DNA of 64,000 nucleotides from Armatimonadota bacterium (GTDB lineage Bacteria > Armatimonadota > Armatimonadia > Armatimonadales > Capsulimonadaceae), in assembly GCA_025353925.1 (NCBI GenBank), contig JANXNV010000221.1, positions 1 through 64,000 on the forward strand, given 5' to 3'. How positions within the stretch are numbered: the stretch's first letter is position 1; the number at the start of each line of letters is the position of its first letter. This document shows, in pieces, positions 6,286 through 48,356 of this stretch. Under the pieces are notes generated by a model that did not search any database, was not told where the DNA came from, and saw nothing but the letters and a program-made list of their open reading frames with translations. The position numbers and the translations under genes are program-made.

Positions 6286-6364
6286 AGAATTATGATTTAG
6301 CTAACGGTGAGTTATATAGCCGAAGGCGGCTACTATGAATCCAGTCGTCGAAAGGACGCTTCCT

Positions 6365-7198: not shown

Positions 7199-7253
7199 TG
7201 GAGGTCAGCTCAGACGAATGATAAAGCATTGTCTGAATGTACAAGGGGATACT

Positions 7254-8027: not shown

Positions 8028-8033
8028 TGCAGT

Positions 8034-19606: not shown

Positions 19607-21670
19607 GTGAATACAAAAGCCTGTAAAAATGTGCTATACTCAAGGAAGCAGCCTCAGACACGAAGGAAAACGACAGTGTACGATCTGAATTTCGATCTTA
19701 ACCCCGATGTTAATAAGACACCCCCCGACCCCCGAAACCTCAAACCGGGACAAAAAATGGAATACGGAAGGAAGTCTACGGCGAATGAACGTTCTCAAAA
19801 AAGTTTAGCAGACCAGAAGAAATGCACGGAAGCCACTTCCGCACGATACGGTCTTCCTTCCACTGAGAATGATTGGATGGAAGAGCCAAAAGGATATTCT
19901 GGGTCGCTCTGGTGGGAGAATGGAGGATCAAATGGCTTGGAAGAGCCTGATCAAAAGCAAAAAGTGCGTCCAACCTTCACAAAAGTCATGCGGAGTATTG
20001 TCAGCGGCCAAACAAAGTGCTTGGTGGTCTGGAATTTAGATCGTTGCTTCAGGTCGGTTTCGATCTGCCAGGCGATGATTATGCTTATGTTTAAGTATGA
20101 TTGTTTGCTTTACGATTTTAACGGCATCGTTAATATCTGGACTTTCGAAGGGCGAAATTCGGTTTTGCAGAACGCGATTGCGAGCCAAGCTGTCTCGGAG
20201 TCAGCACGTATTTCCAGTCCCAGAGGTGTCTTTGAGAGTCTGAAAGCAGGAAGTTTAGCTACGTCTCCGAATCTTCCTGGATTTAGAACGGCTGGCCGCG
20301 GCACAAAAGCCGTCAGGCACATCGATGACGAACAGGCTCTCGTCAACCGCCTCTATTGGCTCTCCGATGCGGGCCACAGCGACGGGCAGATCGCCCACCT
20401 CCTGATGGCCGAGGGCATCCAGCCGTACTCCGGGAGCGGGGGGAAACACCCGAGCGGTCACGACAGAGCTAAGGGCAATGAGATGGTGTGGAGGACTGAT
20501 AATATCCATGATATTCTCTGTTGCCCAAAATATGTCGGGATGCAGCGGCACCGGACCAAAGCGCAGAAAGAGCGCGGCGAGAAAGGCACCGACTACCCCT
20601 GCGCCGCTTTTCTGCGCGAGGTGGAACGTGATGGTAAGACCGTTTTGGAAACGGTGGTGCCTCTTGCCCTTTGGGAGCGGGTGCAGGCTAAGAAGGACGC
20701 CCAGGCCCGGATCGGGCACCGGGGTGTCAATTTCCGCGCCCTTTCAAGCCTGGTTCGTTGTGGCCTGGATGGGGATGCGCTCACTGCCCAGGAAAACAAA
20801 GCCACCGACGGAAGCGGAAAAAAGGTAGGTTTTTGGATCATGCGAAAGACCCGCCCTGGGATGCGGTGCACGCATAGCGTCCCAAGCGTCCGCGAGGCCA
20901 CCCTGACTGACTACATCTACGACGTTCTCGGCCCGCTCTTACATTCGCAGATCATGGAACGGCTGGATGGAGATGCTTATGATCCACACGCGCCGAAACG
21001 GGCCAAGCTGAAGCAGGACCTCGATAAGGAGATCAAGTTTCGGAATGGCCGTCTTCGGGAGATGATGCGCGATGAGGAAATGGATCAAACCATCGTGCGT
21101 GACGAAGCCAGCCAAAACAGGCTCAACATTGAGCGGCTTGAGCGCGAGATTGGGGTGCTGTCGGTGAGCAAGCCGACGGTGGTGGAACTCGAAACCCTGA
21201 ATGTTCTGGCCGACCTCCGCAGCGCAGAACCCGGTGCCGTCCGGGATGCGGTGCGGCAGTGCCTGTGCTGGGTGGCGGTGCTGCCCGTTGACGGAGAGCG
21301 CGAGCCGAAGCCTGGGTATTTGCTAGGGCAGACAGACATCCGGTATTCCTACGCGCCGACGGTGGTCGCGAAGCTGGTGTTTCTCTCCAATCTCGGACTT
21401 TATCATACGGCGGTGCTATTTCGAGAGCGGGACGGCAAGCTGAGCGGTTATCCGCCGTTCAAGTTGCGACCAGCGCGGCCTGACGAGGTCATTGGCGGGG
21501 TGGCGAACTTTCCGCAGCCTCAGTGCTTTATTGACGGGTTGACCAGGGCCTGGGCTGGCCGAGCCTATGATTGGTGCCCGGAGAAATTTGCTCCGGGCTG
21601 GTCTGCCGCCGAGTCTACGCCGATGCCTATCGCTGAGTTCGAATGGACTGGCCCAGAGGCAGCAGGATAA
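19607..21670 (+). CDS. large serine recombinase
   Basis: EYGRKSTANERSQKSLADQKKC, KCLVVWNLDRCFRSV (LDRxxR-like), recombinase middle domain (RHIDDEQALVNRLYWLSDAGHSDGQIAHLLMAEGI...WRTDNIHDILCCPKYVGMQRH), long coiled-coil C-terminus. Confidence 0.8.
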   Translation: MNTKACKNVLYSRKQPQTRRKTTVYDLNFDLNPDVNKTPPDPRNLKPGQKMEYGRKSTANERSQKSLADQKKCTEATSARYGLPSTENDWMEEPKGYSGSLWWENGGSNGLEEPDQKQKVRPTFTKVMRSIVSGQTKCLVVWNLDRCFRSVSICQAMIMLMFKYDCLLYDFNGIVNIWTFEGRNSVLQNAIASQAVSESARISSPRGVFESLKAGSLATSPNLPGFRTAGRGTKAVRHIDDEQALVNRLYWLSDAGHSDGQIAHLLMAEGIQPYSGSGGKHPSGHDRAKGNEMVWRTDNIHDILCCPKYVGMQRHRTKAQKERGEKGTDYPCAAFLREVERDGKTVLETVVPLALWERVQAKKDAQARIGHRGVNFRALSSLVRCGLDGDALTAQENKATDGSGKKVGFWIMRKTRPGMRCTHSVPSVREATLTDYIYDVLGPLLHSQIMERLDGDAYDPHAPKRAKLKQDLDKEIKFRNGRLREMMRDEEMDQTIVRDEASQNRLNIERLEREIGVLSVSKPTVVELETLNVLADLRSAEPGAVRDAVRQCLCWVAVLPVDGEREPKPGYLLGQTDIRYSYAPTVVAKLVFLSNLGLYHTAVLFRERDGKLSGYPPFKLRPARPDEVIGGVANFPQPQCFIDGLTRAWAGRAYDWCPEKFAPGWSAAESTPMPIAEFEWTGPEAAG

Positions 21671-23442: not shown

Positions 23443-24630
23443 ATGATTCTCGACAAGCCACTGGACCAGATCACCGAAGCTGACCTTCAGGTTCTGAAAG
23501 ACAATGCTGTCTCCGAGGGCCGAACTCTGGATTACAAACTGGAACTTACAAAAAACAGCGACGACGCCAAAAAGGAGTTTTTGTTCGACGTTACGTCCTT
23601 CGCGAATGCGGCGGGCGGCTACATGATTTTCGGCATAGGTGAACAGAATGGTGTTCCGGTGGAGGTGACTGGGCTGACAGCGGCCAACCCTGATGCTGAA
23701 ATCCTGCGCTTGGTAAACATGATGCGCGACACCATTCAGCCAAGGCTACGTCCAGTTGGGACGCAGATTGTAAGACTGGCGAATGGTCATTGGTGCCTTG
23801 TGATGCACATTCCGCGGAGTTGGTCGCGGCCTCATGCAGTCCTTAACAAGAAATACTTGGTCTTTTACTCTCGCAACTCAGCGGGGAAATATCCTCTCGA
23901 CGTTCCCGAGGTTCGGGATGCCTTTTTGTCCGCGGGGAGCGAAGCTGAGAGAATTCGGAACTTCCGGGCTGCCCGTATTGGGGACATTGTTGCAGGTCAG
24001 ACCCCAGTTCCCGTTCCAGAAACAGCCAAAATCGTATTTCATCTTGTTCCTATTGGAGCATTCGGCGGCGATACTATTGATGCCAGCCAGCTTGATGGAT
24101 TGCAGCGCAGGATGCACGAAATGAACATCTGGGGTCCGTATAAGCGTCATAATTTTGACGGCTTGCTTTTCAGTACGTTGATGCACCCAGTGGCCCCTGG
24201 ACAAGTAGCCTTAAATTATGCCCAAGTATACCGGAACGGGATCATTGAGGCAGTTGACAGCTTCAACCTGAGTAACGGAGGCGGGCCGAGCGCCATCAAC
24301 GGGCCGTTTTTGGAGGATCGTCTCCTGCCAAAATTGCCACCTTTGCTTCAGGTGATAGAAGTGCTTGAAATCGAACCACCTGTACTACTGTTTGTCACCT
24401 TCCTGGGAGTGTCAGGTTGTACTATATCAGCAACCCCTGGACATTTCATAGACTACCAGCCTTATCCGATTGACCGCGACGCCCTACTGATGCCCGATGT
24501 ACTGATCGAAACGCTGGCCGACGACCCACGCCAGATTATGAAGCCTGTGTTTGACGTGCTGTGGAACTCAGGCGGAAAGTCCGGGTCGCCGAGCTACAAC
24601 GAACTGGGCGAATGGACTCGGCAACAGTAA
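23443..24630 (+). CDS. AlbA_2 (Schlafen-like) domain protein
   Basis: EGRTLDYKLELTKNSDDAKKEFLFDVTSFANAAGGYMIFGIGE; SD acaggagg. Confidence 0.8.
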   Translation: MILDKPLDQITEADLQVLKDNAVSEGRTLDYKLELTKNSDDAKKEFLFDVTSFANAAGGYMIFGIGEQNGVPVEVTGLTAANPDAEILRLVNMMRDTIQPRLRPVGTQIVRLANGHWCLVMHIPRSWSRPHAVLNKKYLVFYSRNSAGKYPLDVPEVRDAFLSAGSEAERIRNFRAARIGDIVAGQTPVPVPETAKIVFHLVPIGAFGGDTIDASQLDGLQRRMHEMNIWGPYKRHNFDGLLFSTLMHPVAPGQVALNYAQVYRNGIIEAVDSFNLSNGGGPSAINGPFLEDRLLPKLPPLLQVIEVLEIEPPVLLFVTFLGVSGCTISATPGHFIDYQPYPIDRDALLMPDVLIETLADDPRQIMKPVFDVLWNSGGKSGSPSYNELGEWTRQQ

Positions 24631-30470: not shown

Positions 30471-30728
30471 TGAGGTGGAAGAGATCAGTCAGTTTCTGGA
30501 CCGCAGTCCAACCATAGCTTCGTGCTGTCGCGCTCAGAGCGAGCGGAAATCCCGTCTTGTCTATTGGTTCGTCTGTTCCAACGACAACCGCAGTCTAAGA
30601 TTAGAGATGTTCTTACCTGCCTGTTGCTCCTCATTACTTCTCCGGTTTCAGAGCCACTGGCCTGAATCGGTCAAGTCGGCTTGACAGATACAACCCATCG
30701 GTGGGATAATGGGGCAGGAGAAGCCAAC

Positions 30729-30983
30729 ATGGGAGACCAGCAGGCGAGCGCCACCGCGCTCGAGGGCGACGATCTGGCCGCACGCCGCGAGGCGGCGAGG
30801 CTCATGGGTCAGGTCCGTACGGACGCGAAGGCGACGGCGGCGCGGGAGAACGGCAAACGCGGGGGCAGGCCGAAGGGCATCCCCATGAGCGACGAGACTC
30901 GCCGAAAGATCAGTGAGGCTAAGCGTGCCCGTGCCGTAGGCCAGGTCCCGCAGGCACACGCACGTATCGAGACCAACCCCTGA
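30729..30983 (+). CDS. hypothetical basic protein
   Basis: SD aggag + ATG; ...GKRGGRPKGIPMSDETRRKISEAKRARA. Confidence 0.45.
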   Translation: MGDQQASATALEGDDLAARREAARLMGQVRTDAKATAARENGKRGGRPKGIPMSDETRRKISEAKRARAVGQVPQAHARIETNP

Positions 30984-31095: not shown

Positions 31096-34000
31096 ATGAA
31101 AACCCTACGCCAAGCCTGTACGCCCCGCGCCACCGTCTTCGACAGCACCAAGCGCGACACGGTGCCCGACATCCTCGACCTCGCCAAGGGCAGAATTGAT
31201 CCCGCCGAGTTTTTCAGCGAGAACTACGCGACCCAGGGCATGAGGACCCTGCTTTCGGAGGCGTTCAAGCGACTCGATGGCGGCGCGCAGGCGCAGGGCA
31301 TCTTCCGCCTAAGTCAGTCAATGGGGGGCGGCAAGACGCACAACCTGATCGCGCTCGGCCTCCTGGCGCAGCACCCCGAGTGGCGCACACAGGTCATGGG
31401 GTCATTCTACACGCCGAAAGCCGCGCTCGGCCCCGTCCGCGTCGCTGCTTTTTCGGGACGGCAGACAGACGCCCCTTTTGGCGTCTGGGGCGAGATCGCG
31501 CGTCAACTCGGTAAGGAACAAGAATTCGCACCGTATTATACGCCGCTGGCTGCGCCAGGACAGGAAGCGTGGATCAGGCTGCTCGCGGGTGAGCCACTGG
31601 TGATCCTGCTGGACGAACTGCCGCCCTACTTCGCCTACGCGAGTACCCGCGAGATCGGGATGGGAACGCTCGCCGATGTCACCACGACGGCGCTGGCGAA
31701 TCTCATGGTCGCGGTCGGTGACAACAAGTTGGAAAACGTTGTTCTGGTAATGACGGACCTATCGGGCGCATCATACCAACAGGCGCAGAGCGCCATCCAG
31801 CAGATGATCGGGACGGCGCTTAACGACTTGGGCAACGAGGCGATCCGCCTATCCATGCCGATTGACCCCGTTCGGATCAACACCGACGAGTTCTACCACA
31901 TCCTGCGGACGCGGCTCTTCGACGGTCTGCCCGACGAGGCGGACATCACTGAAATCGCCCAGGGCTACGCGCAGGCTCTCAAGCACGCCAAGTTGATGGA
32001 CATCACGAGCGCCTCCCCCGAGCAGTTTGCCGCCGACATCGGGAGCAGTTATCCGTTCCACCCAGCGATCCGCGACCTGTACGCCCGCTTCAAGGAGAAT
32101 CAAGGATTCCAGCAGACACGCGCGCTCATCCGCATCATGCGGGTCATCGCCGCGCGGATGTGGGGCGGCTCCGAAGGCGGCAGGGGCAAGGCCGACACCG
32201 CGTACCTGATCGGCGCACATGACATTGACCTGACCGACGCCGAGATGGTCAGCGAAATCAAGCAGATCAACAGCAAACTGGAAACCGCCATCGCGCACGA
32301 CATCGAGACCACGGGCGGGAGCGCCGTCGCCCAGGTGCTCGACCGCGACGCCGCCGCACCCGATGCCGAAGACGTGAGCCGTCTGCTCTTCCTGTCCTCG
32401 CTAACGACCTCGATGAACCAACTGGTCGGCCTGAACCGCTCCGAAGTCGTCGCGTACCTGGCCGCGCCAGGCAGGGATGTGTCCCATCTGTCGAAGGACA
32501 CCATTGATCGACTTCAGACGAGCGCCTGGTACCTGCACGCCTCCCGCGACGGGCGGCTGTACTTTAAGGACACCCAGAACATCAACGCGAAGCTGGAGAC
32601 CTACACGCGCTCCATGCTCCGCGACAGCACGGAGAAGGAACTCCGCGCCCAACTCGACACCATTTTTGCGCCGAAGATGAAGGACTGCTACCAGCGGCTC
32701 CTGTGCCTGCCCGCCCTGGACGAGATACAACTCACACAGGACGTCGTTACCCTGGTCGTCTTCCGACCGTCTGAGGGGGCGCTGGCGACGATCCGTCAAT
32801 TCCAGGAGCAGACGACCTATAAGAACCGCGTCTGCTTCGTCACGGGCGACGCCCACACCTACGAGCGGGTACTGGACGCGGCCTCGCGCATCAAAGCCAT
32901 CACTGCGATCCTGGAAGAACTCCGCACCGAAGGCAGGCCCGACGGCGACCCGCAGGTGCAGGAGGCGCTGGCGATCCGCGATAACCTGATTTCAAAGCTC
33001 TACATGGCGGTCAAGTCCACGTTCCTGACGCTGTACTACCCTACAAAAGACGGGCTGACGAAGGCCGATATGGACTTCATCTACGACGCACACAAGTTCG
33101 AGGCCGAAGACCAAATCCGTCGTGTGCTGGCCGATGCCTACAAGTACACCAGCGACATCGGTGCGGACGGCTCGTTCCGCACTCGGGTGGAAAAGAAACT
33201 GTGGCCGCACGGACAGCAGGAGGCTCCATGGTCCCAGATTAAGGCCAACGCCGCCCAGGATGGCTCCTGGAATTGGCACTTGCCGAATGCGCTGGATCAA
33301 CTCAAAGCGATCCTCGTTCAGCGCGGCCAGTGGCACGAAGGCGAGGGGTATGTGGACAAAGGTCCGTTCCCCCAGCCGAAGACCAATGTGCTGGTGCAGC
33401 AGATCAGCCGCGACGACGTGACGGGCAAGGTGCGCCTGAAAGTGACTCCGATCCATGGGAATCGCGTGTACATGGAGACGGGCGGGGCACAGGCCACGAC
33501 CGCGTCCCGCATGGTCGAGGGCGACACGATTGAGGTAGACGGCTTGGACTACTCATTCGTCGCTGTGGACACCGAGAAGGTCCACGAGGCGGGGGCGGCA
33601 ACAACCTGGACGAACACCGTGACGATCAGGCACCGCTTCTTCCAGGACGGTGACCGAATGAAGTGTGAACTGAAGGCTGCGCCGCACGTCGCCCTCAAGT
33701 TCACGACCGACGGCTCTAACCCCACCGTGAACGGCGGCGCGTACAGCGAGCCGTTCACTGTCCCCAAAGGGGCGCGGTTCGTGCAGGCCGCTCCCGCCAG
33801 CGGCAAGGGCAAAACGGAGCGATTCGATGTGCCCGCCGAGCCTGAAAAGGTCGTCATTGACGCGGAAAAGTCGTACTTCTGGCTGCGGCCATTCCAGCGC
33901 GACGCCACGATGGAGACTTTCAATTTCCTGGGCCAGTGCCGCAAGTACAACGCCTACCTGGGCGGCGTTCATGTGACCATTGCCCGTGAGCGCCGCTGGG

Positions 34001-34212
34001 CGGAATTGGTTATGGACGCCGATTCGTATCACAGCGCCGATGATATGATGAGGGCCATCGAGACTCTTCAGGGGCTGCTGCCACAGGGATCGATCTCGCT
34101 CAAAGCGGAGGCGCTCAACGTGGATACGGGGCAGAACCTTTTGGACATCGTGGCCGAACTGAAGACGGAGATCAAGCAAGGCGAGGCCAAGATCGCTGAG
34201 CCGCGCAAATAA
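31096..34212 (+). CDS. DUF499-type ATPase of anti-phage-associated operon
   Basis: IFRLSQSMGGGKTHNLIALGLLA (Walker A), PLVILLDELPPYF (Walker B); gene context. Confidence 0.85.
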   Translation: MKTLRQACTPRATVFDSTKRDTVPDILDLAKGRIDPAEFFSENYATQGMRTLLSEAFKRLDGGAQAQGIFRLSQSMGGGKTHNLIALGLLAQHPEWRTQVMGSFYTPKAALGPVRVAAFSGRQTDAPFGVWGEIARQLGKEQEFAPYYTPLAAPGQEAWIRLLAGEPLVILLDELPPYFAYASTREIGMGTLADVTTTALANLMVAVGDNKLENVVLVMTDLSGASYQQAQSAIQQMIGTALNDLGNEAIRLSMPIDPVRINTDEFYHILRTRLFDGLPDEADITEIAQGYAQALKHAKLMDITSASPEQFAADIGSSYPFHPAIRDLYARFKENQGFQQTRALIRIMRVIAARMWGGSEGGRGKADTAYLIGAHDIDLTDAEMVSEIKQINSKLETAIAHDIETTGGSAVAQVLDRDAAAPDAEDVSRLLFLSSLTTSMNQLVGLNRSEVVAYLAAPGRDVSHLSKDTIDRLQTSAWYLHASRDGRLYFKDTQNINAKLETYTRSMLRDSTEKELRAQLDTIFAPKMKDCYQRLLCLPALDEIQLTQDVVTLVVFRPSEGALATIRQFQEQTTYKNRVCFVTGDAHTYERVLDAASRIKAITAILEELRTEGRPDGDPQVQEALAIRDNLISKLYMAVKSTFLTLYYPTKDGLTKADMDFIYDAHKFEAEDQIRRVLADAYKYTSDIGADGSFRTRVEKKLWPHGQQEAPWSQIKANAAQDGSWNWHLPNALDQLKAILVQRGQWHEGEGYVDKGPFPQPKTNVLVQQISRDDVTGKVRLKVTPIHGNRVYMETGGAQATTASRMVEGDTIEVDGLDYSFVAVDTEKVHEAGAATTWTNTVTIRHRFFQDGDRMKCELKAAPHVALKFTTDGSNPTVNGGAYSEPFTVPKGARFVQAAPASGKGKTERFDVPAEPEKVVIDAEKSYFWLRPFQRDATMETFNFLGQCRKYNAYLGGVHVTIARERRWAELVMDADSYHSADDMMRAIETLQGLLPQGSISLKAEALNVDTGQNLLDIVAELKTEIKQGEAKIAEPRK

Positions 34213-34216
34213 CCCG

Positions 34217-35020
34217 ATGGCAACTGAACGAACAAAAACTGAACCGCCCAAAACAGAGACCATCGGGTTCGGCTTCGAGCCGTCCAAGACGGCCTACCAT
34301 TTTGTCGTCACCATCCCGCGCGGTCAGGACGGCTCAGTGGAGGTCAGCGAGCATTTCGTTTATGGCGAAGACTACGAAGACGCCGCCGCACGCGCGCGTC
34401 TTTCCGACGAGGTGCCTTCGTTCCCAATCCGCCCTCCTCAGCCGAAGGTCGTGGTTTCCCTGCACCAATGGCGGTATGTCGCCGACGATGTGCGGACGGA
34501 GTTCAACCGCACCCTTCGCACGGCGGGTTACAAGCCCAGTGCCTGGAAGATCGGACCGAACTGTCTGTCGGCGCATCTGGGCAAGGAACTGACCCTGCTC
34601 CTGTGGGCCGTCGAGGACATTGACCCGTCATTGATCCCGAACGCGGTCGCGAACTGGTCAGGGCTGGCCCCCGAAGAACGCTGGTGGCTCTACACCACTA
34701 TCAACGCCGCGACGGGGCACGTCACGGAGGGGCGCGGGCGCGGCTGGCGTCAGGCCATTGGCATCGCCTTTCGGGACAACCCCGTCACCCCGCGCTACTT
34801 CTCCCAGAATGGGGCCGCACCAAGCGCCAAACCGTCCATCAACGGGAGCGGCGGCAGGAACGGGACAAAGGCCAATGGTACCGGGCACAACGGCACCAAG
34901 AATGGCAAGGGCCAGAAGACCAGTGACGACGATCCCGACCGCCAACTCTCGCTCCTCGTGCTGGACGAACTGCCGACAACCGTCGGGCCGCCACCGGAAG
35001 AATTAGAAACGAACGCATGA
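34217..35020 (+). CDS. DUF3780-type protein
   Basis: GFGFEPSKTAYHFVVTIPRG...LSAHLGKELTLLLWAVEDIDPSLIPNAVANWSGLAPEERWWLYTTINAATG; ATGA overlap with next gene. Confidence 0.75.
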   Translation: MATERTKTEPPKTETIGFGFEPSKTAYHFVVTIPRGQDGSVEVSEHFVYGEDYEDAAARARLSDEVPSFPIRPPQPKVVVSLHQWRYVADDVRTEFNRTLRTAGYKPSAWKIGPNCLSAHLGKELTLLLWAVEDIDPSLIPNAVANWSGLAPEERWWLYTTINAATGHVTEGRGRGWRQAIGIAFRDNPVTPRYFSQNGAAPSAKPSINGSGGRNGTKANGTGHNGTKNGKGQKTSDDDPDRQLSLLVLDELPTTVGPPPEELETNA

Positions 35021-38000
35021 ATCAGACCAAGACTTTTATCGAAACCCAGTTTCCCGTTTCCAAACTCAGCAAGGAGAGTTACAAAGAGCGCAAAGCCAAT
35101 CACGGACAGACTCTGACAGGTCTGGGCAAGTGGTGGGGGCGGAAGCCGCTGATCCTGGTCCGCGCGGCCATTCTTGGCCTGCTCTTGCCCGCCACGGAAG
35201 ACCCCCAGAAAGATCGTGAGACGTTTCTGCGTATCCTGACCATGGATGAGGAAGGACTGTGGGCGCGCAAGACCAAAACGCTGTCCGCCGCCGAAGCCTA
35301 CGAACTTCTGACACCGACGGAGCAGACCGACTGGTTTGAGGTTCGTGGCGATAAGATCGGCTTCAAGCGCGGTCTGAGGCCCGAAGATAAAGAAAGCATC
35401 CAGCGGCGTGCTTTCGACCGCCTGAACTACGATGTGAAGCTGGAATACTGCGCTCGGCCCGAGGAAATCGGCGGGCCGAGCGTCGAGTCCTGGGCAGTGA
35501 TCAACACGCACCTCGGGACGAAGGCAAACACCCTGGCCGAACTGGTCCAGGAACTCGGCCAGCGACAGTTCGGCCACACGCCGCGCGTCGGCGACGCTTT
35601 TTGTGGCGGCGGGAGCATCCCGTTCGAGGCAGCGCGGATTGGCTGCGAGGCGTTCGGCTCTGACCTGTCCCCTGTCGCGGCCCTGCTCACCTGGTCTGCC
35701 CTGAACATCGTTGGCGGCGGTCCTGAAGTCGCCACCGATGTCCGCCACGCCCTGGAAGTTGTTTACGACGCAGTCAAGCAGCAGATAGAAGCGTGGGGCA
35801 TTGAGCGTAATGCCGTCGGCTGGGTCGCCGACGCCTACCTGTATTGCCACGAGGTGTACGACAATGGTTGGATGCTACCGCTCGCCCCTTCCTGGGTGAT
35901 TGGGGAGCGCACCCGCACCGTCGCCCGCCTCATCCCGCGCACCGAGTCGAAGACCTTCCGCATCGCCATCGAGCAAGGCGTGGATGATCGCATGATGGCG
36001 TCCGCGAAGGAAGAAGGCACTTGGGCGAACGGCGTCAAGTGTCCTGTGGACGCGGACGGCAATCTCATCCCGCCAACCCAGCGCCGCGCCACAAGCGCGG
36101 ACAGTCTGCGCGGACGCGGCGGGCTGCGCCGCTGGGAGAATGACGACCTCGTCCCGCGCACCGAGGACGTGTTCCAGGAACGCCTGTACTGCATTCGCTG
36201 GCGTCTGCCCAAACTCAGCGCCCTGCTCTGGGAAGAGCAGCGGGCCGATACAGACCGCCCATTGGATACAGTGCGCCGCGAGATTGAAGGCTTGATGGCA
36301 TTCCTCACCCCCGTTGAGCAGGAACGCCTGGCGGCTCTGCGGGGCCGTGATTGGGCGGCGGAGGATTGCGACGCTCAGACGAAGTTCATCGACCTGGAAC
36401 GCCTGCGAGCACTGGGGCCGAAAGGCACAACCCGCGAGGCGGTACTGGCGGCCAGAGAATGCTGGGATCAGGCTCGGGAGATCGTTCGTCAACGCGAGGC
36501 CGCCGTCGCCGTGCTGTCGGGACAAGTTCCCGAGACGCGATACGCCGCACCCGAAGCCGAAGATGTGGAGCGGGAAAAACTCGTCTTGTCCCGCCTGCGG
36601 GGGAAGTTTGCCGACTGGCAGGCGAAGGGTTACATCCCATCCATGCCAATCGAAGGTGGATATAATCAAGACCAGCCAATACGTGAACGCGGCTACACCC
36701 ATTGGCATCACCTATTCAATCCGCGTCAACTGCTGACACTGGGCCTGTTCGCTGAACTGTGCGACCAGATGCAGTTGAAGGGTACAGCAGCGGTGGGATG
36801 TATGCTTGTTCTTGGGAAACTTACCAACTACAACTCGCGGTTGAGCCTCTGGCATCCTGCTGCCGCAAATGAGAACACTGAACGTGTCTTCACAAATCAA
36901 TCACTGAATACACTGGCGAACTATGCTGCTCGCACGGTCGCCTCGTTACCTTCCATTATATTCTCCAGAGAGAAACAGGCGTTCATCAACGGTGCGGGGC
37001 AAATTGAAGCCAACGACGCGCGGATAATGAGCCACGAATGCGATTTGTGGATCACCGACCCTGCTTATGCCGACGCTATCAACTATGATGAACTTTCTGA
37101 GTTTTTTCTGTCTTGGTACTCGAAAAGATTGCACACTTTGTTCCCCGAATGGTACACGGATAGCAAGCGTGCACTTTCCGTTCGCGGCTCCGATGAACCA
37201 TTCCGCTTGGCGATGGTCGAGTGCTACCGTAACTTTGCCCAGCATATGCCCGACAATGGCCTCCAAGTCGTCATGTTTACACACACCGACGCTGAGGTAT
37301 GGGCCGACCTCGCCTTGATTCTTTGGGCGGCGGGCCTGCGCGTTACGACAGCTTGGACCATTGCCACAGAAACCAGTGTCTCAGGGTTGAAGCAGGGCAA
37401 CTACGTCCAAGGAACGGTCCTGCTCGTCCTCCGCAAGCAGACGGGAGATGAGTGGGGCGACTTATCCGACATCTTTCCCGAGGTCACACGCGAGGTGGAG
37501 TGCCAGATGGAGTCCATGACCGCCCTGGACGACCGCGACGATCCCAACTTCAGCGACTCGGATTACCAACTCGCCGCCTACGCCGCCGCCCTGCGCGTCA
37601 TCACAGGTTACAAGACTATCGCCGAGATCAACGTGGATCGCGAAATAGGGCGCGTGCGCGGCAAGGGAGAGAAGTCGCCCCTGGCCGACGTGATCGAGAA
37701 GGCCGTCAAGATCGCCTCCGACTATCTGGTCCCGCGAAGCGTGGATAGGCTGGTGTGGCGCACACTGACCGCCGATGAACGGCTCTACGTCAAGGGGATC
37801 GAGGTTGAGTCTCACGGCGACTACCGAAGCGGGGTGTACATGGAATTCGCCCGTGGCTACGGCGTCCGTGACTACCGCGTCCTGCTCGGCTCCTCCGAGG
37901 CCAACAAGACCCGCCTGAAAACTCCCTCCGAGTTCAAAGGCGCGGGCCTGTCGGGGGATGGCTTTGCTCAGACCAACTTGCGCCAAATCCTGTTCGCCGT

Positions 38001-38205
38001 CTACAAGACGGGGGAGACGGGTGACCCCAGCGTCGGGCGCGACTGGCTTCTCCGCGAGGTCAAGGGCTATTGGGACCGCCGCACGGTCATCGTGGAGATG
38101 CTGCGCTACCTCGCCCACGCGCCCAGCCCCGCCATGACCCATTGGGCGAAGGACCAGGAAGCCGCCGAACTTCTGGCGGGCCTGATCGCCAACGACACAC
38201 CGTAG
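35017..38205 (+). CDS. DUF1156-type DNA methyltransferase
   Basis: Start FIETQFPVSKLSKESYKERKANHGQTLTGLGKWWGRKPL; DAFCGGGSIPFEAARIGCEAFGSDLSPVA; DLWITDPAYADAINYDELSEFFLSWY. Confidence 0.88.
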   Translation: MNQTKTFIETQFPVSKLSKESYKERKANHGQTLTGLGKWWGRKPLILVRAAILGLLLPATEDPQKDRETFLRILTMDEEGLWARKTKTLSAAEAYELLTPTEQTDWFEVRGDKIGFKRGLRPEDKESIQRRAFDRLNYDVKLEYCARPEEIGGPSVESWAVINTHLGTKANTLAELVQELGQRQFGHTPRVGDAFCGGGSIPFEAARIGCEAFGSDLSPVAALLTWSALNIVGGGPEVATDVRHALEVVYDAVKQQIEAWGIERNAVGWVADAYLYCHEVYDNGWMLPLAPSWVIGERTRTVARLIPRTESKTFRIAIEQGVDDRMMASAKEEGTWANGVKCPVDADGNLIPPTQRRATSADSLRGRGGLRRWENDDLVPRTEDVFQERLYCIRWRLPKLSALLWEEQRADTDRPLDTVRREIEGLMAFLTPVEQERLAALRGRDWAAEDCDAQTKFIDLERLRALGPKGTTREAVLAARECWDQAREIVRQREAAVAVLSGQVPETRYAAPEAEDVEREKLVLSRLRGKFADWQAKGYIPSMPIEGGYNQDQPIRERGYTHWHHLFNPRQLLTLGLFAELCDQMQLKGTAAVGCMLVLGKLTNYNSRLSLWHPAAANENTERVFTNQSLNTLANYAARTVASLPSIIFSREKQAFINGAGQIEANDARIMSHECDLWITDPAYADAINYDELSEFFLSWYSKRLHTLFPEWYTDSKRALSVRGSDEPFRLAMVECYRNFAQHMPDNGLQVVMFTHTDAEVWADLALILWAAGLRVTTAWTIATETSVSGLKQGNYVQGTVLLVLRKQTGDEWGDLSDIFPEVTREVECQMESMTALDDRDDPNFSDSDYQLAAYAAALRVITGYKTIAEINVDREIGRVRGKGEKSPLADVIEKAVKIASDYLVPRSVDRLVWRTLTADERLYVKGIEVESHGDYRSGVYMEFARGYGVRDYRVLLGSSEANKTRLKTPSEFKGAGLSGDGFAQTNLRQILFAVYKTGETGDPSVGRDWLLREVKGYWDRRTVIVEMLRYLAHAPSPAMTHWAKDQEAAELLAGLIANDTP

Positions 38206-38251
38206 CGGTTCAAGGCCGCCCGTTTCCAACGGACGGGAGGCGAGCATACTC

Positions 38252-39337
38252 ATGGACGTTTTGCATTTAACTGGGACCGGTTTGACGATCTTGCTTCTTT
38301 TGGTCGCCGCCGTGATCGCCGTCCGTGTTTACCGATCACGGTCCGAGGCCCTGAAATTATCGTTGCCCGTCCTGAGCGGTTCAGCCGCCGCCAGGGGGAC
38401 GCGGGTCGCCATCAACCCGTTGCAGGGGGTGTCTTTTCAGGAGTCCCTTCAGCCAGAAGTGTTCGCAGAGGCGACCCGTCAAAACGTGATCGGTGCCATG
38501 CTCGTGAGCTATGGTGCCGACACCGCCAGTACCGGGTTGCAGATCGCGGCGAGCCACACGGGGAGCCTCCTGGTCAGTTTCAAGGATCAAAACTATGAGA
38601 TGGTGCAGTCCACCAATGGCGTTTACAAGGCGATGACGCGCGCCGCCAACGGCGACTTTCATGAGATCGCCAACGTTGACAAGTTTGGCACCTGGCTGAA
38701 CAATGTCTCGCACGCCTCCGCCGCCGTGGTCGCTGTCGCGCACCTGATCAGCAACGCTGATATGTCCAGGAGGCTCGGCGAGGTTCAGAAGAACACCGAT
38801 AAGTTACTGGACTACCGCCAGATTGATACTCTTGCAAAGATTCAGACCACCTACGAGTCGCTCCGTGAGGAGATCGGCAAAGTGGAGCCGCGACGAGACG
38901 CCATTGCTCGTTACCGCGAGACCTTTCGCGAGAACCGTCATCGCTTGTTTCGCGAGGCGGAGAATGACATTGGTCAAATGCCATCCATGCTCAGATTCAA
39001 TCCCGCACTGGTGAGAAAGGCCGAGCAACTGGTCAAGACGCCACAGTTTAATAAGCGCAAGCGCGACCTGAGCGAAGTGATGACCAAGTTACAGACAGCT
39101 TCGTATTGCTTTCAGATGGAGACGTTGGCGGCTTCCTTTTGTGGTTCCGAGCAGGACCAGCAACATCTACTCCATGAGGCTGCAGCTTCATGGAGCACGC
39201 TTGCCTCCAAGGTTACTCACCTGGAAGACGAGATTCGCGAGCACGATCAATGTGGTAAGCAGTTGCAGGAGACGGCTAACATCATACGGCAGAATATGAC
39301 ACGCCGCCCCCACAGGCCGCAAAGAGATGGGTTCTGA
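38252..39337 (+). CDS. unknown membrane-anchored coiled-coil protein inside the defence operon
   Basis: N-terminal TM (LTILLLLVAAVIAVRVY); stop/start TGATG overlap with the helicase gene. Confidence 0.65.
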   Translation: MDVLHLTGTGLTILLLLVAAVIAVRVYRSRSEALKLSLPVLSGSAAARGTRVAINPLQGVSFQESLQPEVFAEATRQNVIGAMLVSYGADTASTGLQIAASHTGSLLVSFKDQNYEMVQSTNGVYKAMTRAANGDFHEIANVDKFGTWLNNVSHASAAVVAVAHLISNADMSRRLGEVQKNTDKLLDYRQIDTLAKIQTTYESLREEIGKVEPRRDAIARYRETFRENRHRLFREAENDIGQMPSMLRFNPALVRKAEQLVKTPQFNKRKRDLSEVMTKLQTASYCFQMETLAASFCGSEQDQQHLLHEAAASWSTLASKVTHLEDEIREHDQCGKQLQETANIIRQNMTRRPHRPQRDGF

Positions 39338-42021
39338 TGCGGCGCTATTCCTCACGACGAGCACCTCTGGACGGCTTTCTGGCCGACGCCCTTCTGGGGG
39401 CAACCGCCTACGACCGCATCGCGGGCTATTTCTCCTCGTCCGTGCTGGAACTGGCGGGAGAGGCCATCGAACAGGTTGAGGGCCAGGTACGGGTCATCTG
39501 CAACTCCCAACTCGATCCCACAGATGTGTCCACCGCCCGCGCCGCCCACCTCGCCCAGCGCCGCGAGTGGGCAGGGTCTCTGCCCGAGGACGTGCCGCCC
39601 CCGATGCAGAGACGGCTCGCCCGCCTGTACGACTTCCTGAAGAGCGGCAAACTCCGCGTTAGGGTCCTCCCCGACACCCGCTTCGGCCTGATTCACGGCA
39701 AGGCGGGCGTCATCACGCGGGAGAACGGGGTGCGCTTCTCCTTCCTTGGGAGCGCCAACGAGTCCCGTAGCGCCTGGACCCGCAACTACGAGATCGTCTG
39801 GGTGGACGAGAGCGCCGAGGGCACGACCTGGGTGCAGGAAGAGTTTGACGCCCTCTGGTGCGACCCCTACGCCGTTGACCTCGCCGATGCTGTAGTCGAG
39901 GACGTCGGGCGGCTCTCGCGGCGGGTGGTATGGGCGACTGTGGGCGACTGGCGGGACGCCGTCGCCCCCGACCCTGCTGCCCCCGCAATCGAACTGCCCG
40001 TGTACCGCCGAGAGAACGGGCTTTGGGCGCACCAGAAGGCGTTCGTCCAGATGGCATTCGAGGCGCATCAGGGTGGCGGGGCACGCTTCGTGCTTGCCGA
40101 TCAGGTCGGCCTGGGCAAGACGGTCCAGCTTGGTCTTGCTGCAAAACTCATGGCACTGGTCGGCGAGAAACCTATCCTGATCCTGGCCCCGCGCCCGCTA
40201 ATGGAGCAGTGGCAGGGCGAACTATGGTCGCTCCTCGCGTTCCCTACGGCCCGATGGAACGGGCGGCAGTGGGTAGATGAGAATGGCGTCGTCTACCCCG
40301 ACAGCGGCCCCGAAGGTCTGCGCCGCTGCCCTCGCCGTGCGGGGATCGTCTCGACCGGACTGATCAAGCGCAAGGGCGACGGGATCGCCGTCCTGGAAGG
40401 GATGGAGTTTGAGTGCGTGATCCTGGACGAAGCGCACCACGCCAGGCGAACGAACCTCGGCCCCAACCATCGGGGCGAACCCGCCAAGCCGACCAACCTG
40501 CTCCGCTTCCTCCACACCGTAGCCCGCCGCACTCGGAGTATCCTCCTGGCGACGGCGACGCCCGTCCAACTCGACCCGATTGAAGCCTGGGATATGCTCT
40601 CGGTACTGGCCGAGGGGAACGACTCTGTGTTGGGCGACCAGTTCAGCCTGTGGCGGCGGGACCCGTGGCGAGCGATTGACCTGGTGACAGGCCGTGAGGT
40701 TCTGGGGGTGGACGCGGGTCCGACCACGCTCTGGGAGTGGGTACGCAATCCTCTCCCGCCCTCCCGTGAGGGCATTGACTTCGCGGTCCTACGCCGCAGC
40801 CTGGACGTGCCCGAGGACGCCCAGGTCGTCGTTGGGAGCCGCTACCGCGATCTGCGTCCCGCCGACCAGCGCCGCCTTAACGGGCTTCAGACGGGCCTCT
40901 TCCAGAGCCACAACCCATTCATCCGCCACATCGTCCGCCGCACCCGTGCGTATCTGGAAGACACCCTCGACCCGACCACGGGGGAGTCCTACCTGAAGCC
41001 CGTCCGGGTGCGTCTCCACGGCGAAGGTGACAGCGAGGCGATCATTCTGCCCGCGTTTTTGGAACGCGCTTACCAGTTCGCGGAGGATTTCTGCCGCGAG
41101 ATCGGCCAGCGCCCTAACCTAAGTTCAGGCTTCCTGAAGACGATGCTCCTGCGGCGGGTGGGGAGTTCGATTGAGGCGGGCCGCGTCACTGCGGAGCGGA
41201 TGCTGGGGGCGGTCGGCGAGGACGAGGAGGAGGGTGAGGACGACGATGTGCGCGAATCTGCCCTGTACCCTCTGACCCCTGGAGAACGGGCGCATCTGGA
41301 AGCCTTCGCTGCCGCCCTGCGGACCAATACGGAGGACGACCCGAAGTTCGCGGCTATTTTGGAGAAACTCGCCTCGGGCTGGCGGGAGGCGGGGTGCATC
41401 CTGTTCAGCCAGTATTACGACTCCGCGTCCTGGCTGGCACGTGCCCTATCGGGCCACTTCCCTAATGAGACGGTCGCGCTCTACACGGGCGCGTCACGCT
41501 CGGGCCTCCTGCGGGGCGGACAGTTCACCCCCATCAGTCGCGATGAGATCAAGCGCCAGGTGCAGGCAGGGGAAGTGCGGCTCATCTGCGGCACGGACGC
41601 CGCCAGCGAGGGACTGAACTTGCAGCGGCTGGGGTGCCTGATCAACTTGGACCTCCCCTGGAACCCGACCCGCCTCGAACAGCGCAAGGGCCGCATCCAA
41701 CGGATCGGGCAGACGCGGGAAATCGTGGACATCTACAATATGCGCTACCGCGGGTCGGTGGAAGACCGCGTCCACCAACTCCTGTCGTCCCGCCTTCAGA
41801 ACATCGCCGATATGTTCGGCCAACTCCCCGACACCTTGGAAGACGTATGGGTGAGCGTGGCCCTTGCCGATGACGCACGTGCCCGCCGCGTCATAGACGC
41901 CGTGCCCGCGTCCCATCCGTTTGAAATTCGGTACGACCGCATTGAGAACATCCCATGGGAACAGTGCGCCGAGGTCCTGACGGCGACGAGTCAGTTGGAG
42001 ACCCTGCGGAGACCCTGGTAA
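39337..42021 (+). CDS. PLD-like nuclease domain + SNF2-type helicase
   Basis: HGKAGVITRENGVRFSFLGSANESRSAW (HxK...N), ADQVGLGKTVQLGLAAKL, VILDEAHHARR, GTDAASEGLNLQ, NLDLPWNPTRLEQRKGRIQRIGQ. Confidence 0.9.
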   Translation: MRRYSSRRAPLDGFLADALLGATAYDRIAGYFSSSVLELAGEAIEQVEGQVRVICNSQLDPTDVSTARAAHLAQRREWAGSLPEDVPPPMQRRLARLYDFLKSGKLRVRVLPDTRFGLIHGKAGVITRENGVRFSFLGSANESRSAWTRNYEIVWVDESAEGTTWVQEEFDALWCDPYAVDLADAVVEDVGRLSRRVVWATVGDWRDAVAPDPAAPAIELPVYRRENGLWAHQKAFVQMAFEAHQGGGARFVLADQVGLGKTVQLGLAAKLMALVGEKPILILAPRPLMEQWQGELWSLLAFPTARWNGRQWVDENGVVYPDSGPEGLRRCPRRAGIVSTGLIKRKGDGIAVLEGMEFECVILDEAHHARRTNLGPNHRGEPAKPTNLLRFLHTVARRTRSILLATATPVQLDPIEAWDMLSVLAEGNDSVLGDQFSLWRRDPWRAIDLVTGREVLGVDAGPTTLWEWVRNPLPPSREGIDFAVLRRSLDVPEDAQVVVGSRYRDLRPADQRRLNGLQTGLFQSHNPFIRHIVRRTRAYLEDTLDPTTGESYLKPVRVRLHGEGDSEAIILPAFLERAYQFAEDFCREIGQRPNLSSGFLKTMLLRRVGSSIEAGRVTAERMLGAVGEDEEEGEDDDVRESALYPLTPGERAHLEAFAAALRTNTEDDPKFAAILEKLASGWREAGCILFSQYYDSASWLARALSGHFPNETVALYTGASRSGLLRGGQFTPISRDEIKRQVQAGEVRLICGTDAASEGLNLQRLGCLINLDLPWNPTRLEQRKGRIQRIGQTREIVDIYNMRYRGSVEDRVHQLLSSRLQNIADMFGQLPDTLEDVWVSVALADDARARRVIDAVPASHPFEIRYDRIENIPWEQCAEVLTATSQLETLRRPW

Positions 42022-42195: not shown

Positions 42196-42747
42196 TCAGA
42201 AATTCGTCATCGCGAACTGTCCGTGGTGTCGGCGGGCGGCCTCATCATAGGCACGGGCCGCCTCCACCGGACAGGTGTATCGGCCAAGACGCAGAGTCAC
42301 ACCATTGACCTTGATCTCCGCCGTGTACCTGCCGCTCCGTGGGTCCCGCGAGACGCCCTTGTACCCACTCGTATTGGTTATCGGGCGCGGGCAGTTCCAT
42401 GCGTTTTCCGTCCGAGAGGCGACCCGGAGGTTCGCCCGTCGGTTGTCCAAGCCATCCAGACTCCGGTGGTCCACGAGCACCTCCGGGTCGGTGACGCCCA
42501 TGACCAGACGGTGCATCCGCAGGCTCTGCTGTCGGTCCCGTCCGTCCCGCACCTGTGTGATCGCATACGTCCGCCAGCGGAAAGTCGCGGCACACCAGCG
42601 GTGCGGAGCCACCAGCTGTAGGTCAGCAACGTCGATGACGGCGTACTCACCTTGGCTCAGTTCGATTCGGATGGTATCGCCGATGATCTCGAACCAATTC
42701 CGCGTGACGATGTGGGGAAGGTTGGGGTGGACATAGCGGAAGTTCAT
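42196..42747 (-). CDS. HNH endonuclease with AP2-like domain
   Basis: LRMHRLVMG...VLVDHRSLDGLDNRRANLRVASRTENAWN + GYKGVSRDPRSGRYTAEIKVNGVTLRLGRYTCPVEAARAYDEAA. Confidence 0.85.
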   Translation of the reverse strand: MNFRYVHPNLPHIVTRNWFEIIGDTIRIELSQGEYAVIDVADLQLVAPHRWCAATFRWRTYAITQVRDGRDRQQSLRMHRLVMGVTDPEVLVDHRSLDGLDNRRANLRVASRTENAWNCPRPITNTSGYKGVSRDPRSGRYTAEIKVNGVTLRLGRYTCPVEAARAYDEAARRHHGQFAMTNF

Positions 42748-43553
42748 GCGTGGTTCTCCTGGAACGCGTCTACACGGAAGTCGATTCCCGTGCTCTCTCG
42801 GGACTCGCAGCCGTCCCGGAGCGGGCACCATTGGCAATGCTCGCCCGGTTCTTGGGGGTGGGCGTCGCCGAGCAACACCCGCTGGAGCCTGTCCATCACC
42901 GCCGCGTGCTGGCCCCGGACGTCCGCGACGGTGATTGTCTCCCTGTCCACACGACCGCCCTCGTCCACCCAGTCCAACTCAGACAAATAGTTGTCGTATC
43001 CGGGGAATCCCAACTTCAGCAGCCAGAGGTTTGTGAAAGCGGCTTCCAGGTCCGTCTTGGGCCGCCCCAGCTTGTAGTCGCGGCCCACCACCGTCACCGG
43101 ACCGGTCCCGGACGCGTCGGCACGCACGATCACCCGATCCAGGCGACCCGACAGAACAAAAAACGGCTGCCCGTCACGAGTGATCGGCTTCTCTACCCAA
43201 TGCTCGACGGATAATGTGTTCACGGCGTCATCAAGATCGTCGTTGGCGATATAACCTTCAAGCATCCGCAAGCATCGCAAACGATCTTCGTCCCGCGCCG
43301 CTTCGGAGTCGTACCGCTGTCCGCGAAACGCCTGGCGGCTCCACGCTTCCAGGTGGGTGACGTTCGGGGGCGTACCGTTGCGCGGATTATAGACCTTGCC
43401 CGCCAACTCATGCCAGGCGATCCCGAAGCTGGCGTTCGTGATCGCGGGTCGGGGCGGCCACTGCTTGAGCACGCGTAGGGTGTGAAACCGGTAATTACAA
43501 TGGGTATCGACGAGGCTAGACGGAGAAATTCGAGCAGTAAGATTAGTTGACAC
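42744..43553 (-). CDS. PD-(D/E)XK (RecB/Cas4-like) nuclease with candidate Fe-S cysteines
   Basis: HCNYRFHTLR ... LSGRLDRV ... VVGRDYKLGR ... HCQWCPLRDGC; 4-nt overlap with HNH gene. Confidence 0.8.
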   Translation of the reverse strand: MSTNLTARISPSSLVDTHCNYRFHTLRVLKQWPPRPAITNASFGIAWHELAGKVYNPRNGTPPNVTHLEAWSRQAFRGQRYDSEAARDEDRLRCLRMLEGYIANDDLDDAVNTLSVEHWVEKPITRDGQPFFVLSGRLDRVIVRADASGTGPVTVVGRDYKLGRPKTDLEAAFTNLWLLKLGFPGYDNYLSELDWVDEGGRVDRETITVADVRGQHAAVMDRLQRVLLGDAHPQEPGEHCQWCPLRDGCESRESTGIDFRVDAFQENHA

Positions 43554-45775: not shown

Positions 45776-46993
45776 TTAAGAGTGCGTTCGCTGGCGACGC
45801 GGCATCCGAGGCGGAAGCTGCGGCGCGGGTTCCGGTGGCGGAGAGAGCGCAGGCTCTGCCTGCGCTGGCTTTGACATAACTTGCTCAAATACGTCAGTCT
45901 GCTTGTGCGTTTTTCGGACATCCTCCGAAACCGTGTGGCCGTAAATTTGATGCGTTGTTACGACACTCTTGTGGCCCGCCATTTCTCTCGCGTGTTCGGG
46001 GTTGACCTGTAGCGCCGCAGATATGGCCCTGTGGCGCAGTGAATGCAAAGTGAACCTATCGGGTAGGTCCATTCCTTGCGAGCGACCCCAGGCAAAGTAC
46101 CGCTGCAACTGGCGAAGCATACTTGGCCCATCGACCTGTTCGCCCCAACTGTTTTTGAACAGCCAGTCGCCTTTTGGCTTAGGCTTACGCGTCCCGCCTG
46201 CACCAAGCACTGGCTTTGGCCCACGCTTGGTCGGGCGCACGGCAGAAAGTGCTAAGCGGGCAGCGTCCATGTCCATAATGGCAGCCGCGACCCGGTCGCT
46301 AAGGGGCAATCCACGCGTCTTTCTGGACTTCGTGTTTTTGGCGGCAAACTTAACGACTCTTTGATCATAGTCGATGTCCGAAGTTCGCAGTTTACACATT
46401 TCGCCGCGCCGTGCCCCAATCGACAGAGCCATCGCAAACCATGCTTTGGCCCGCGTCTCAAGCACTTTGGCTTCTTCTCGTAACCAAGTATCAGCGATCT
46501 CGGGGTGGAGTTCGGGGTCCCAATGGGCGCTGATGCACTTAATGCCGAGTTCGAGTTTGTCAAGGCCCCAGACGGGAATGTCAGCATCATCGTCGCTCCG
46601 GTGCAGTTTCAGAGCATAATAGTGGTCGCGGCGCAAATAACGGCGCATATAAGCATCCCCGCACCATGTTTTCAGCCTAATCGAGAACGTTCGCGTAGAT
46701 GAGTCAGCGTTTTCGAGGCCCGTGTTAGGATTGCGACGACCCTTGTAAAGCGTGATGACATCATTCAGCACGTCAAGCGTGATCTGACCAGTTGTCGTTG
46801 CACCCGCAACCTCAAAAAGGGGGGCGGCTGTTCGCGAAAAAATCTTTCGGTTTGCCACCGACGCGGGGCGCTGCCCGCCGCGTTCGGCCTCCTGCACCCA
46901 CTTCGCGAACGCGTCTGGAATCGGTACATCGTAAATTACATCTGCCGTGTCCACTATTATTACACCTCCGCTCGCTTGTGTTCTGAAATACAT
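45776..46993 (-). CDS. tyrosine-type site-specific integrase
   Basis: IGARRGEMCKLRTSDID ... HSLRHRAISAALQVNPEHAREMAGHKSVVTTHQIYGH (R..HxxR..H..Y). Start at MYFRTQ because the longer ORF runs through a terminator hairpin and a tRNA-like sequence. Confidence 0.88.
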   Translation of the reverse strand: MYFRTQASGGVIIVDTADVIYDVPIPDAFAKWVQEAERGGQRPASVANRKIFSRTAAPLFEVAGATTTGQITLDVLNDVITLYKGRRNPNTGLENADSSTRTFSIRLKTWCGDAYMRRYLRRDHYYALKLHRSDDDADIPVWGLDKLELGIKCISAHWDPELHPEIADTWLREEAKVLETRAKAWFAMALSIGARRGEMCKLRTSDIDYDQRVVKFAAKNTKSRKTRGLPLSDRVAAAIMDMDAARLALSAVRPTKRGPKPVLGAGGTRKPKPKGDWLFKNSWGEQVDGPSMLRQLQRYFAWGRSQGMDLPDRFTLHSLRHRAISAALQVNPEHAREMAGHKSVVTTHQIYGHTVSEDVRKTHKQTDVFEQVMSKPAQAEPALSPPPEPAPQLPPRMPRRQRTHS

Positions 46994-47032
46994 CTCGTGT
47001 TTACAAACACATAATACCCCAAAATCGCCAAA

Positions 47033-47067
47033 AAAAGCGTCTTCTGAATTTTTCAGAAGACGCTTTT
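47033..47067 (-). terminator. 16-bp-stem Rho-independent terminator
   Basis: AAAAGCGTCTTCTGAA-TTT-TTCAGAAGACGCTTTT. Confidence 0.8.
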
Positions 47068-47085
47068 CGCCTTGAAATCTTATGT

Positions 47086-47148
47086 TGCGCCCGGTCCACG
47101 ACCTCTTCTTTACCAAAGAAGTGCTCTACCACTGAGCTACTTGGGCGC
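47086..47148 (-). tRNA. tRNA-Thr(GGT)-like sequence lacking a normal T-arm (truncated or att-site remnant)
   Basis: GCGCCCAAGTAGCTCAGTGGTAGAGCACTTCTTTGGTAAAGAAGAGGTCGTGGACCGGGCGCA: normal D-arm and anticodon arm, GCGCCC/GGGCGC acceptor pairing, no TTCRANY T-loop. Confidence 0.65.
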
Positions 47149-47210: not shown

Positions 47211-48356
47211 TCACGCCTCTGTGATCTCCCCGTGTTCATTGATGACGATGTGCGGTGTCGGCCGAATAGGCACTTTCAGGAAATAGCGTGTGCCTTTCAA
47301 TTCGCCTTGCCTAGTCAGTGCTTCTTTCTCGGTGAGATCAGCCAGGTCGCGTGTGGCCGTGGCATGAGGTGCGCCGGTAATCGCCATGTATTTTGCGGCA
47401 GTTAAGCCGCCCAGGAAGCCACCTGGTCCAGCACGGAACATTCGAAGAAGAGCTTTTTCCTGACGCTCGTTCAATCGCCCACGCAGAAGGTCCAGCATTC
47501 TGACCTTATCCTGAATAAACGCCACCTCGCTCAGTGTGCGTGTCTGTGCTTCGAGAACGGTGCCGGCAAACCAGAGAAGCCATGCCGTGATCTCATTCGA
47601 CTTGTTTGCCGCTTCCAGGGCATCGTAGTACTGCTTTCGGCGAATAAGGATAGTCGGCGAGAGCGCAAGAAGCAGCGGCTGTCCGATTGCCTGCCGCAGG
47701 GCCTTTTCCGCCAGTGCCCGGGAGATGCGGCCATTCCCATCTTCGAAGGGGTGGACAGACGCAAAGTAAAGATGGGCAATCCCGGCACGTGCCAAGGCAG
47801 ACATTGTTTTTTCCGAAGCATTGAACCACTCAACAAACTGTGTCATCTCGGCGGGAACGAGTGCAGAGGGAGGGGCTTCGAAGTAGACTTTCGGTTTATC
47901 GGCTCGCCCGGAGACTACCTGCATTGGCTCTATGTGAGTTCGGTATTGCCCGATGCTGGACAAGTCGCGCCGACCATTCATGAGCATTTTGTGCCAATCA
48001 AACAATGTCTCCTCTCTCAAAAGGCCCGCGTAATCGTTCAAAGCATAGACCGTCATCTCGGCGATGCCATACTCGCGCGACTCGACATTCCGATTGTCAA
48101 AGGTTAGACCAAGCCGCTGCCTGATCGACGATTGAACGCTCAGGCGGTCAAGAGTCTCCCCCTCGATTTCCGATGTCGTGAGGGCTTCGGAAAGCAGCAG
48201 CTCGACCTCGATCTGTTTGCGATCCCCGTCTTCAAGAGGGTCAAGCGAACCCAGAAGCAAGCCCCCGCCCAGCAGAAACCTTTGCTCTGCGAGCCGCAGG
48301 CGATCACTGTTCCAGACAAAGTCTCGCCAATTTTGTTTCTGCCAGTTCCAGAGCAT
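47211..48356 (-). CDS. Fic family protein with DUF4172-like N-terminus
   Basis: HPFEDGNGRISRALAEKAL (Fic motif); inhibitory-helix-like TSEIEGE. Confidence 0.92.
   Translation of the reverse strand: MLWNWQKQNWRDFVWNSDRLRLAEQRFLLGGGLLLGSLDPLEDGDRKQIEVELLLSEALTTSEIEGETLDRLSVQSSIRQRLGLTFDNRNVESREYGIAEMTVYALNDYAGLLREETLFDWHKMLMNGRRDLSSIGQYRTHIEPMQVVSGRADKPKVYFEAPPSALVPAEMTQFVEWFNASEKTMSALARAGIAHLYFASVHPFEDGNGRISRALAEKALRQAIGQPLLLALSPTILIRRKQYYDALEAANKSNEITAWLLWFAGTVLEAQTRTLSEVAFIQDKVRMLDLLRGRLNERQEKALLRMFRAGPGGFLGGLTAAKYMAITGAPHATATRDLADLTEKEALTRQGELKGTRYFLKVPIRPTPHIVINEHGEITEA

Follow-up and report, generated by a model that had tools for sequence, protein, structure and literature searches.

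The junction between the methyltransferase and helicase genes of Type-2 DUF499-centred BREX-related (BR) operons is a cargo slot, and in the 64,000-nucleotide stretch of Armatimonadota DNA analysed here (the window) this slot is filled by an exchangeable guest, not by a core subunit of the system. The guest gene (38252-39337, plus strand) encodes a 361-residue accessory protein with a predicted membrane anchor, hereafter X. Tentatively, X can be regarded as a membrane-tethered backup effector carried as accessory cargo of the operon, a reading that falls somewhat short of probable. In any case, X probably adds an optional weapon or a helper rather than a part of the core machine.

According to their profile matches, the genes surrounding X form an operon of a known kind, the DUF499/DUF3780/DUF1156/PLD-helicase anti-phage system (NCBIfam NF042961-NF042964; PADLOC). 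The name Type-2 BR for a system made of these four genes is taken from a 2026 paper (PMC12839542); a literature search for DUF1156 together with DUF499, or with DUF3780, returned this paper alone. The first core gene (31096-34212, plus strand) encodes the DUF499 AAA+ ATPase (PADLOC DUF499, E=1.5e-206), which scores 827 bits with NF042962, under the cut-off of 1200. It carries an Fn3-like match (Fn3_assoc/CHB_HEX_C_1) at 859-902, and Fn3-like domains are reported for about half of the Type-2 BR ATPases (PMC12839542). The DUF3780 protein (34217-35020, plus strand; PF12635, E=4.8e-42) also stays under its cut-off (NF042961, 133 bits for 200 required). The scores of the two other core genes, both on the plus strand, exceed the cut-offs, with 1264.6 bits for 1000 in the case of the DUF1156 adenine methyltransferase (35017-38205; NF042963) and 1186 bits for 1100 in that of the PLD-SNF2 helicase (39337-42021; NF042964), the presumed nuclease effector. 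The helicase comprises PLDc_2 (E=4e-12, 45-174), Helicase_C and SNF2 domains, and the alignment of its N-terminus begins at position 3 of the PLD-helicase model; the absence of an N-terminal TUDOR domain from the helicase is used to define Type-2 BR (PMC12839542). Thus, a DUF499 ATPase, a standalone DUF3780 protein, a DUF1156 methyltransferase and a helicase with an N-terminal HKD/PLD domain are all found, in the usual order and with intact reading frames, as in Type-2 BR systems (PMC12839542). The operon differs from these by the presence of X between methyltransferase and helicase and by the divergence of its DUF499 and DUF3780 proteins, which score under the NCBIfam cut-offs.

The slot of the window spans 38206-39336 on the plus strand. 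The X reading frame runs from ATG to TGA over 361 codons. It begins 46 bp after the methyltransferase stop (38205) and is preceded by a GGGAGG-type ribosome binding site, and its TGA (39335-39337) has one base in common with the helicase ATG (39337). Because X lies so close to the methyltransferase gene and its stop overlaps the helicase start, transcription, and probably translation, is common to the operon, so that X is probably translated within the same operon as the core genes. The position of the gene and the stop-start overlap had been given in an earlier note on this DNA and proved exact. The same holds for its statements that X has one N-terminal transmembrane helix, here predicted at residues 6-25, that it resembles none of the usual partners, no significant family match being found, and that it lies inside a defence operon, the four core genes all matching PADLOC/NCBIfam anti-phage models.

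The evidence for the slot comes from 80 related operons of bacteria and archaea collected by a helicase scan, which are the best-scoring matches and not a random sample, and which include near-duplicates (L055/L057, L087/L101). Both the methyltransferase end and the helicase start could be read in 71 of these loci. The distribution of the gap between them is bimodal, with at most 200 bp in 34 loci and more than 200 bp in 37, and in 34 of the latter half or more of the interval is taken up by plus-strand ORFs. At the two remaining junctions of the operon, distances above 400 bp are rare (7 of 48 and 7 of 47 loci). Examples of the related operons are L030, L038, L039, L043, L045, L059, L077, L081 and L090. 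Toxin- and nuclease-type genes are prominent among the identifiable cargo. Pfam-identified cargo comprises SLFN_AlbA_2 (Schlafen), PIN, ParA with RelA/SpoT, AAA_21 with RloB, OLD AAA with TOPRIM, DUF3800, Mrr, Fic and a ParE-like toxin; YaaC with an AbiGi-like protein, an Eco57I-type methylase and a WD40 protein also occur. Other cargo matches no Pfam family (for instance in L045, L059, L062, L071, L077 and the first ORF of L090). At least one slot besides that of the window, in L077, holds a predicted multi-TM protein.

X was searched for in the 80 sampled operons with tblastn and with the family profile and is absent from all of them; a 362-aa ORF preceding the helicase in L014 was rejected as a relative, being the C-terminus of the methyltransferase. 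This absence argues that X is an accessory protein rather than a subunit. X lies inside the locus, in a slot used by other accessory genes, as is the case for auxiliary cargo, and it does not show the presence in most members of the system that characterises a core subunit. The earlier proposal was therefore right in placing a predicted membrane protein within the defence operon, but the idea of an integral subunit that makes the operon a variant system is not supported, with X missing from 80 of 80 operons and about half of the slots empty. The same counts bear on the possibility that X serves in immunity or regulation and restrains the core, for example by holding the helicase nuclease inactive. 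The overlap of its stop with the helicase start would favour matched amounts of the two proteins. However, the helicase is the same in roughly one half of the related operons that lack any extra gene at the junction; such a role is highly unlikely. Alternatively, X may be a non-toxic membrane tether by which the complex of ATPase and helicase is held at the inner membrane, at the site of phage DNA entry, thereby speeding up restriction. A single transmembrane helix followed by a long helical tail would suit an adaptor, the X stop is coupled to the helicase start, and Chloroflexota relatives also adjoin an ATPase-type (Hsp70-like) protein. Nevertheless, X is found in none of the 80 operons, the slot is often empty, and the relative in genome G191 (see below) is intact though the Type-2 core to be tethered is gone. 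A tethering function is rather unlikely.

Among 291 genomes of Armatimonadota, the phylum of X, one full-length relative was found, in G191 (locus L121). It shows 26% identity to X over about 290 aa (E=3e-21), and on this ground X is to be considered a real gene rather than a chance ORF. Directly upstream of the relative, and ending at its start, lies a frameshifted remnant of the C-terminus of a DUF1156 methyltransferase; in a frameshift-tolerant profile alignment, this remnant scored 94.8, compared with 27.9 +/- 3.9 for 150 dinucleotide shuffles, none of which reached its score. The remnant is joined to an N-terminal DUF499 fragment 59% identical to the ATPase of the window. A PLD-helicase remnant was looked for 3' of the relative and was not found. 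These remains indicate that in G191 X was retained in the same slot after decay of the Type-2 operon, and the intact state of the relative despite this decay suggests that it has a function of its own. In both family members found in the phylum, the gene comes right after a DUF1156 methyltransferase belonging to this system, and the link is hence not accidental. The G191 relative is also adjoined by a complete HmaABC set (Hma, a Type-1 BR system whose core is homologous to that of Type-2 BR) with an RmuC-like gene. The relative is, however, separated from Hma by a 1.2-kb gap and follows the Type-2 remnant instead. The RmuC-like gene (L121:7037-8746; PADLOC RTasRmuC, E=6e-34), located upstream of HmaA, encodes a TM/coiled-coil protein.

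These observations weigh on the idea that X is a passenger, or a cellular gene of other origin inserted here by chance, with no role in phage defence. The slot does accept many kinds of inserts, WD40 proteins included, and the Chloroflexota homologues have an ordinary chromosomal context. On the other hand, this slot is also the site of X in another lineage that has diverged strongly (26% identity for X, as against 59% for the DUF499 fragment), and in the window the X frame is intact, with its stop-start overlap and a conserved core. We therefore consider a mere passenger unlikely.

The predicted organisation of X is that of an anchored cytoplasmic protein. Residues 6-25 (38267-38326, plus strand) form the putative transmembrane anchor (Kyte-Doolittle hydrophobicity, KD, 2.47). 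No K/R precedes this helix and three follow it, hence the predicted N-out/C-in topology. The N-terminal helix is also present in the relatives L121 (KD 1.97), which starts with it, and L143 from Chloroflexota (KD 3.38). The anchor is predicted in three members from two phyla, and in the two whose charges were compared, positive charge is on the predicted cytoplasmic side. Residues 104-171 (38561-38764, plus strand) constitute a conserved core, with the pattern LLVSF..D..Y...Q..G..KA.TR..G.FHEI.NVD ... AHLIS.AD. Identity between X and the G191 protein is 44% in this region and 14-21% elsewhere, which points to the core and its hydrophobic helix as the constrained part of the protein. This second helix (residues 148-166; 38693-38749, plus strand) has a KD of 1.16 in X, weaker than that of the anchor and only moderately hydrophobic, and the values across the family are 1.2-2.1. 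It bears H164, from which a polar H-S-D pattern extends to S167 and D170. In the family alignment (A5), A163 and D170 are invariant, and H164 and S167 are replaced in some members. Residues 172-350 (38765-39301, plus strand) would form a long helical or coiled-coil tail, helices being predicted at low confidence by single-sequence AlphaFold (pLDDT mostly 50-70). The two AlphaFold predictions of X made without alignment had pLDDT values of 44-50 and bring no fold-based support; they leave the C-terminal half helical at low confidence.

No significant match of X to a Pfam, NCBIfam, PADLOC, PHROG or PDB family was found beyond coiled-coil noise. In particular, no nuclease domain was recognised in X or its relatives with Pfam, NCBIfam, PADLOC or PDB. 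The only nuclease-type match, to a PHROG 'exonuclease' (E=0.0012), was set aside, as were NCBIfam SMC-like matches, because they are confined to the coiled coil. No catalytic-type motif was seen in X. X was not found in phage or plasmid records, and exact 8-mer scans of viral and genome contigs with the single X sequence, which have a low sensitivity, gave no match.

In the absence of a catalytic-type motif and of a nuclease family match, a membrane role appears likelier for X than an enzymatic one. The preferred guess is a backup effector acting on the membrane, since toxins, RNases and restriction modules abound among the identifiable cargo of the slot, X shows no enzymatic motif, and a hydrophobic helix with the polar residues H164, S167 and D170 is retained in the family. 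It can be proposed that the N-terminal helix anchors X in the inner membrane, so that the conserved core and the helical tail face the cytoplasm. When a phage engages or defeats the core complex, X would change state via its cytoplasmic core. The second conserved hydrophobic helix would then act on the membrane, and this action would stop the infected cell. We infer each of the three elements of this scheme, namely the effector role of X, its sensing of the phage or of failure of the core, and its action on the membrane. The predicted anchor shared by three members from two phyla counts in favour of an effector; the moderate hydrophobicity of the second helix and the occurrence of X in only two slots, within one phylum, count against it.

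By sequence comparison, X belongs to an unnamed protein family present in Armatimonadota and Chloroflexota. More distant relatives were found in eight Chloroflexota genomes (L122-L127, L142, L143). Like X, they retain the core, the hydrophobic helix and the helical tail; an N-terminal transmembrane helix is called in one of them (L143), and most lack it as called. Unlike X, they are chromosomal and lie outside BR operons, mostly downstream of an Hsp70-like gene: no BR operon or other defence context was seen among the surroundings read. In six of the eight (L123, L124, L125, L127, L142 and L143), the gene directly follows the Hsp70-like gene on the same strand, forming a conserved pair. As most of these relatives lack the anchor and sit beside an Hsp70-like gene, the basic role of the family need not be toxicity. 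A predominance of homologues outside such operons had been named beforehand as a finding that would speak against a part in the system. Such a predominance is seen in raw numbers, with the eight Chloroflexota genomes, but in the phylum of X both members lie inside.

The rarity of the family is provisional, given the limited sampling. Single-sequence queries in a sample of the phylum of L037 and profile searches in samples of the phyla of L025, L034, L035 and L045 gave no convincing members. Weak matches (L002-L012, L109-L111 and L120) were discarded, being due to chance, to coiled coils or to unrelated proteins, with L111 reading as an RlpA/SPOR-type protein. A match in L131 (E=1.1e-5), a frame of 826 aa, is limited to the coil region.

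The novelty is modest, consisting of a membrane-anchored accessory in a known system and of a quantified cargo slot, not of a new system. The auxiliary or backup effectors listed for BREX and BR loci are described as nucleases (PMC12839542, section 35). X resembles these effectors in being an additional gene next to or within the core locus, but differs from those catalogued there in having no nuclease family match and in its predicted membrane anchor. With X, the accessories of DUF499/BREX-related systems, whose published extra effectors are described as nucleases (PMC12839542, section 35), would come to include a membrane-anchored type. More generally, Type-2 BR operons might carry a replaceable effector cassette, X being a non-nuclease backup that damages the membrane when restriction fails; this broader proposal is possible but doubtful. 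A simple rule for finding more cargo is to look at what is encoded between DUF1156 methyltransferase and PLD helicase genes, as half of the sampled operons have something in the slot, genes without a family name included.

The operon is flanked by a large serine recombinase gene (19607-21670) and a tyrosine integrase gene (45776-47116), which suggests that the region is a mobile island. A DUF4172-Fic gene (47211-48356) comes after the integrase. Just downstream of the operon, on the minus strand, an AP2-HNH homing-type endonuclease gene (42196-42837) overlaps a PD-(D/E)XK (Cas4-like) gene (42744-43553). Directly upstream of the DUF499 gene is a small ORF (30681-30983) that matches NUMOD3 below the threshold, and an SLFN_AlbA_2 (Schlafen-like) gene lies nearby (23443-24630). 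Finally, a vWA/PP2C/serine-threonine kinase triad at 6335-10337, with PADLOC PP2C and STK_OB matches, is a candidate defence module.
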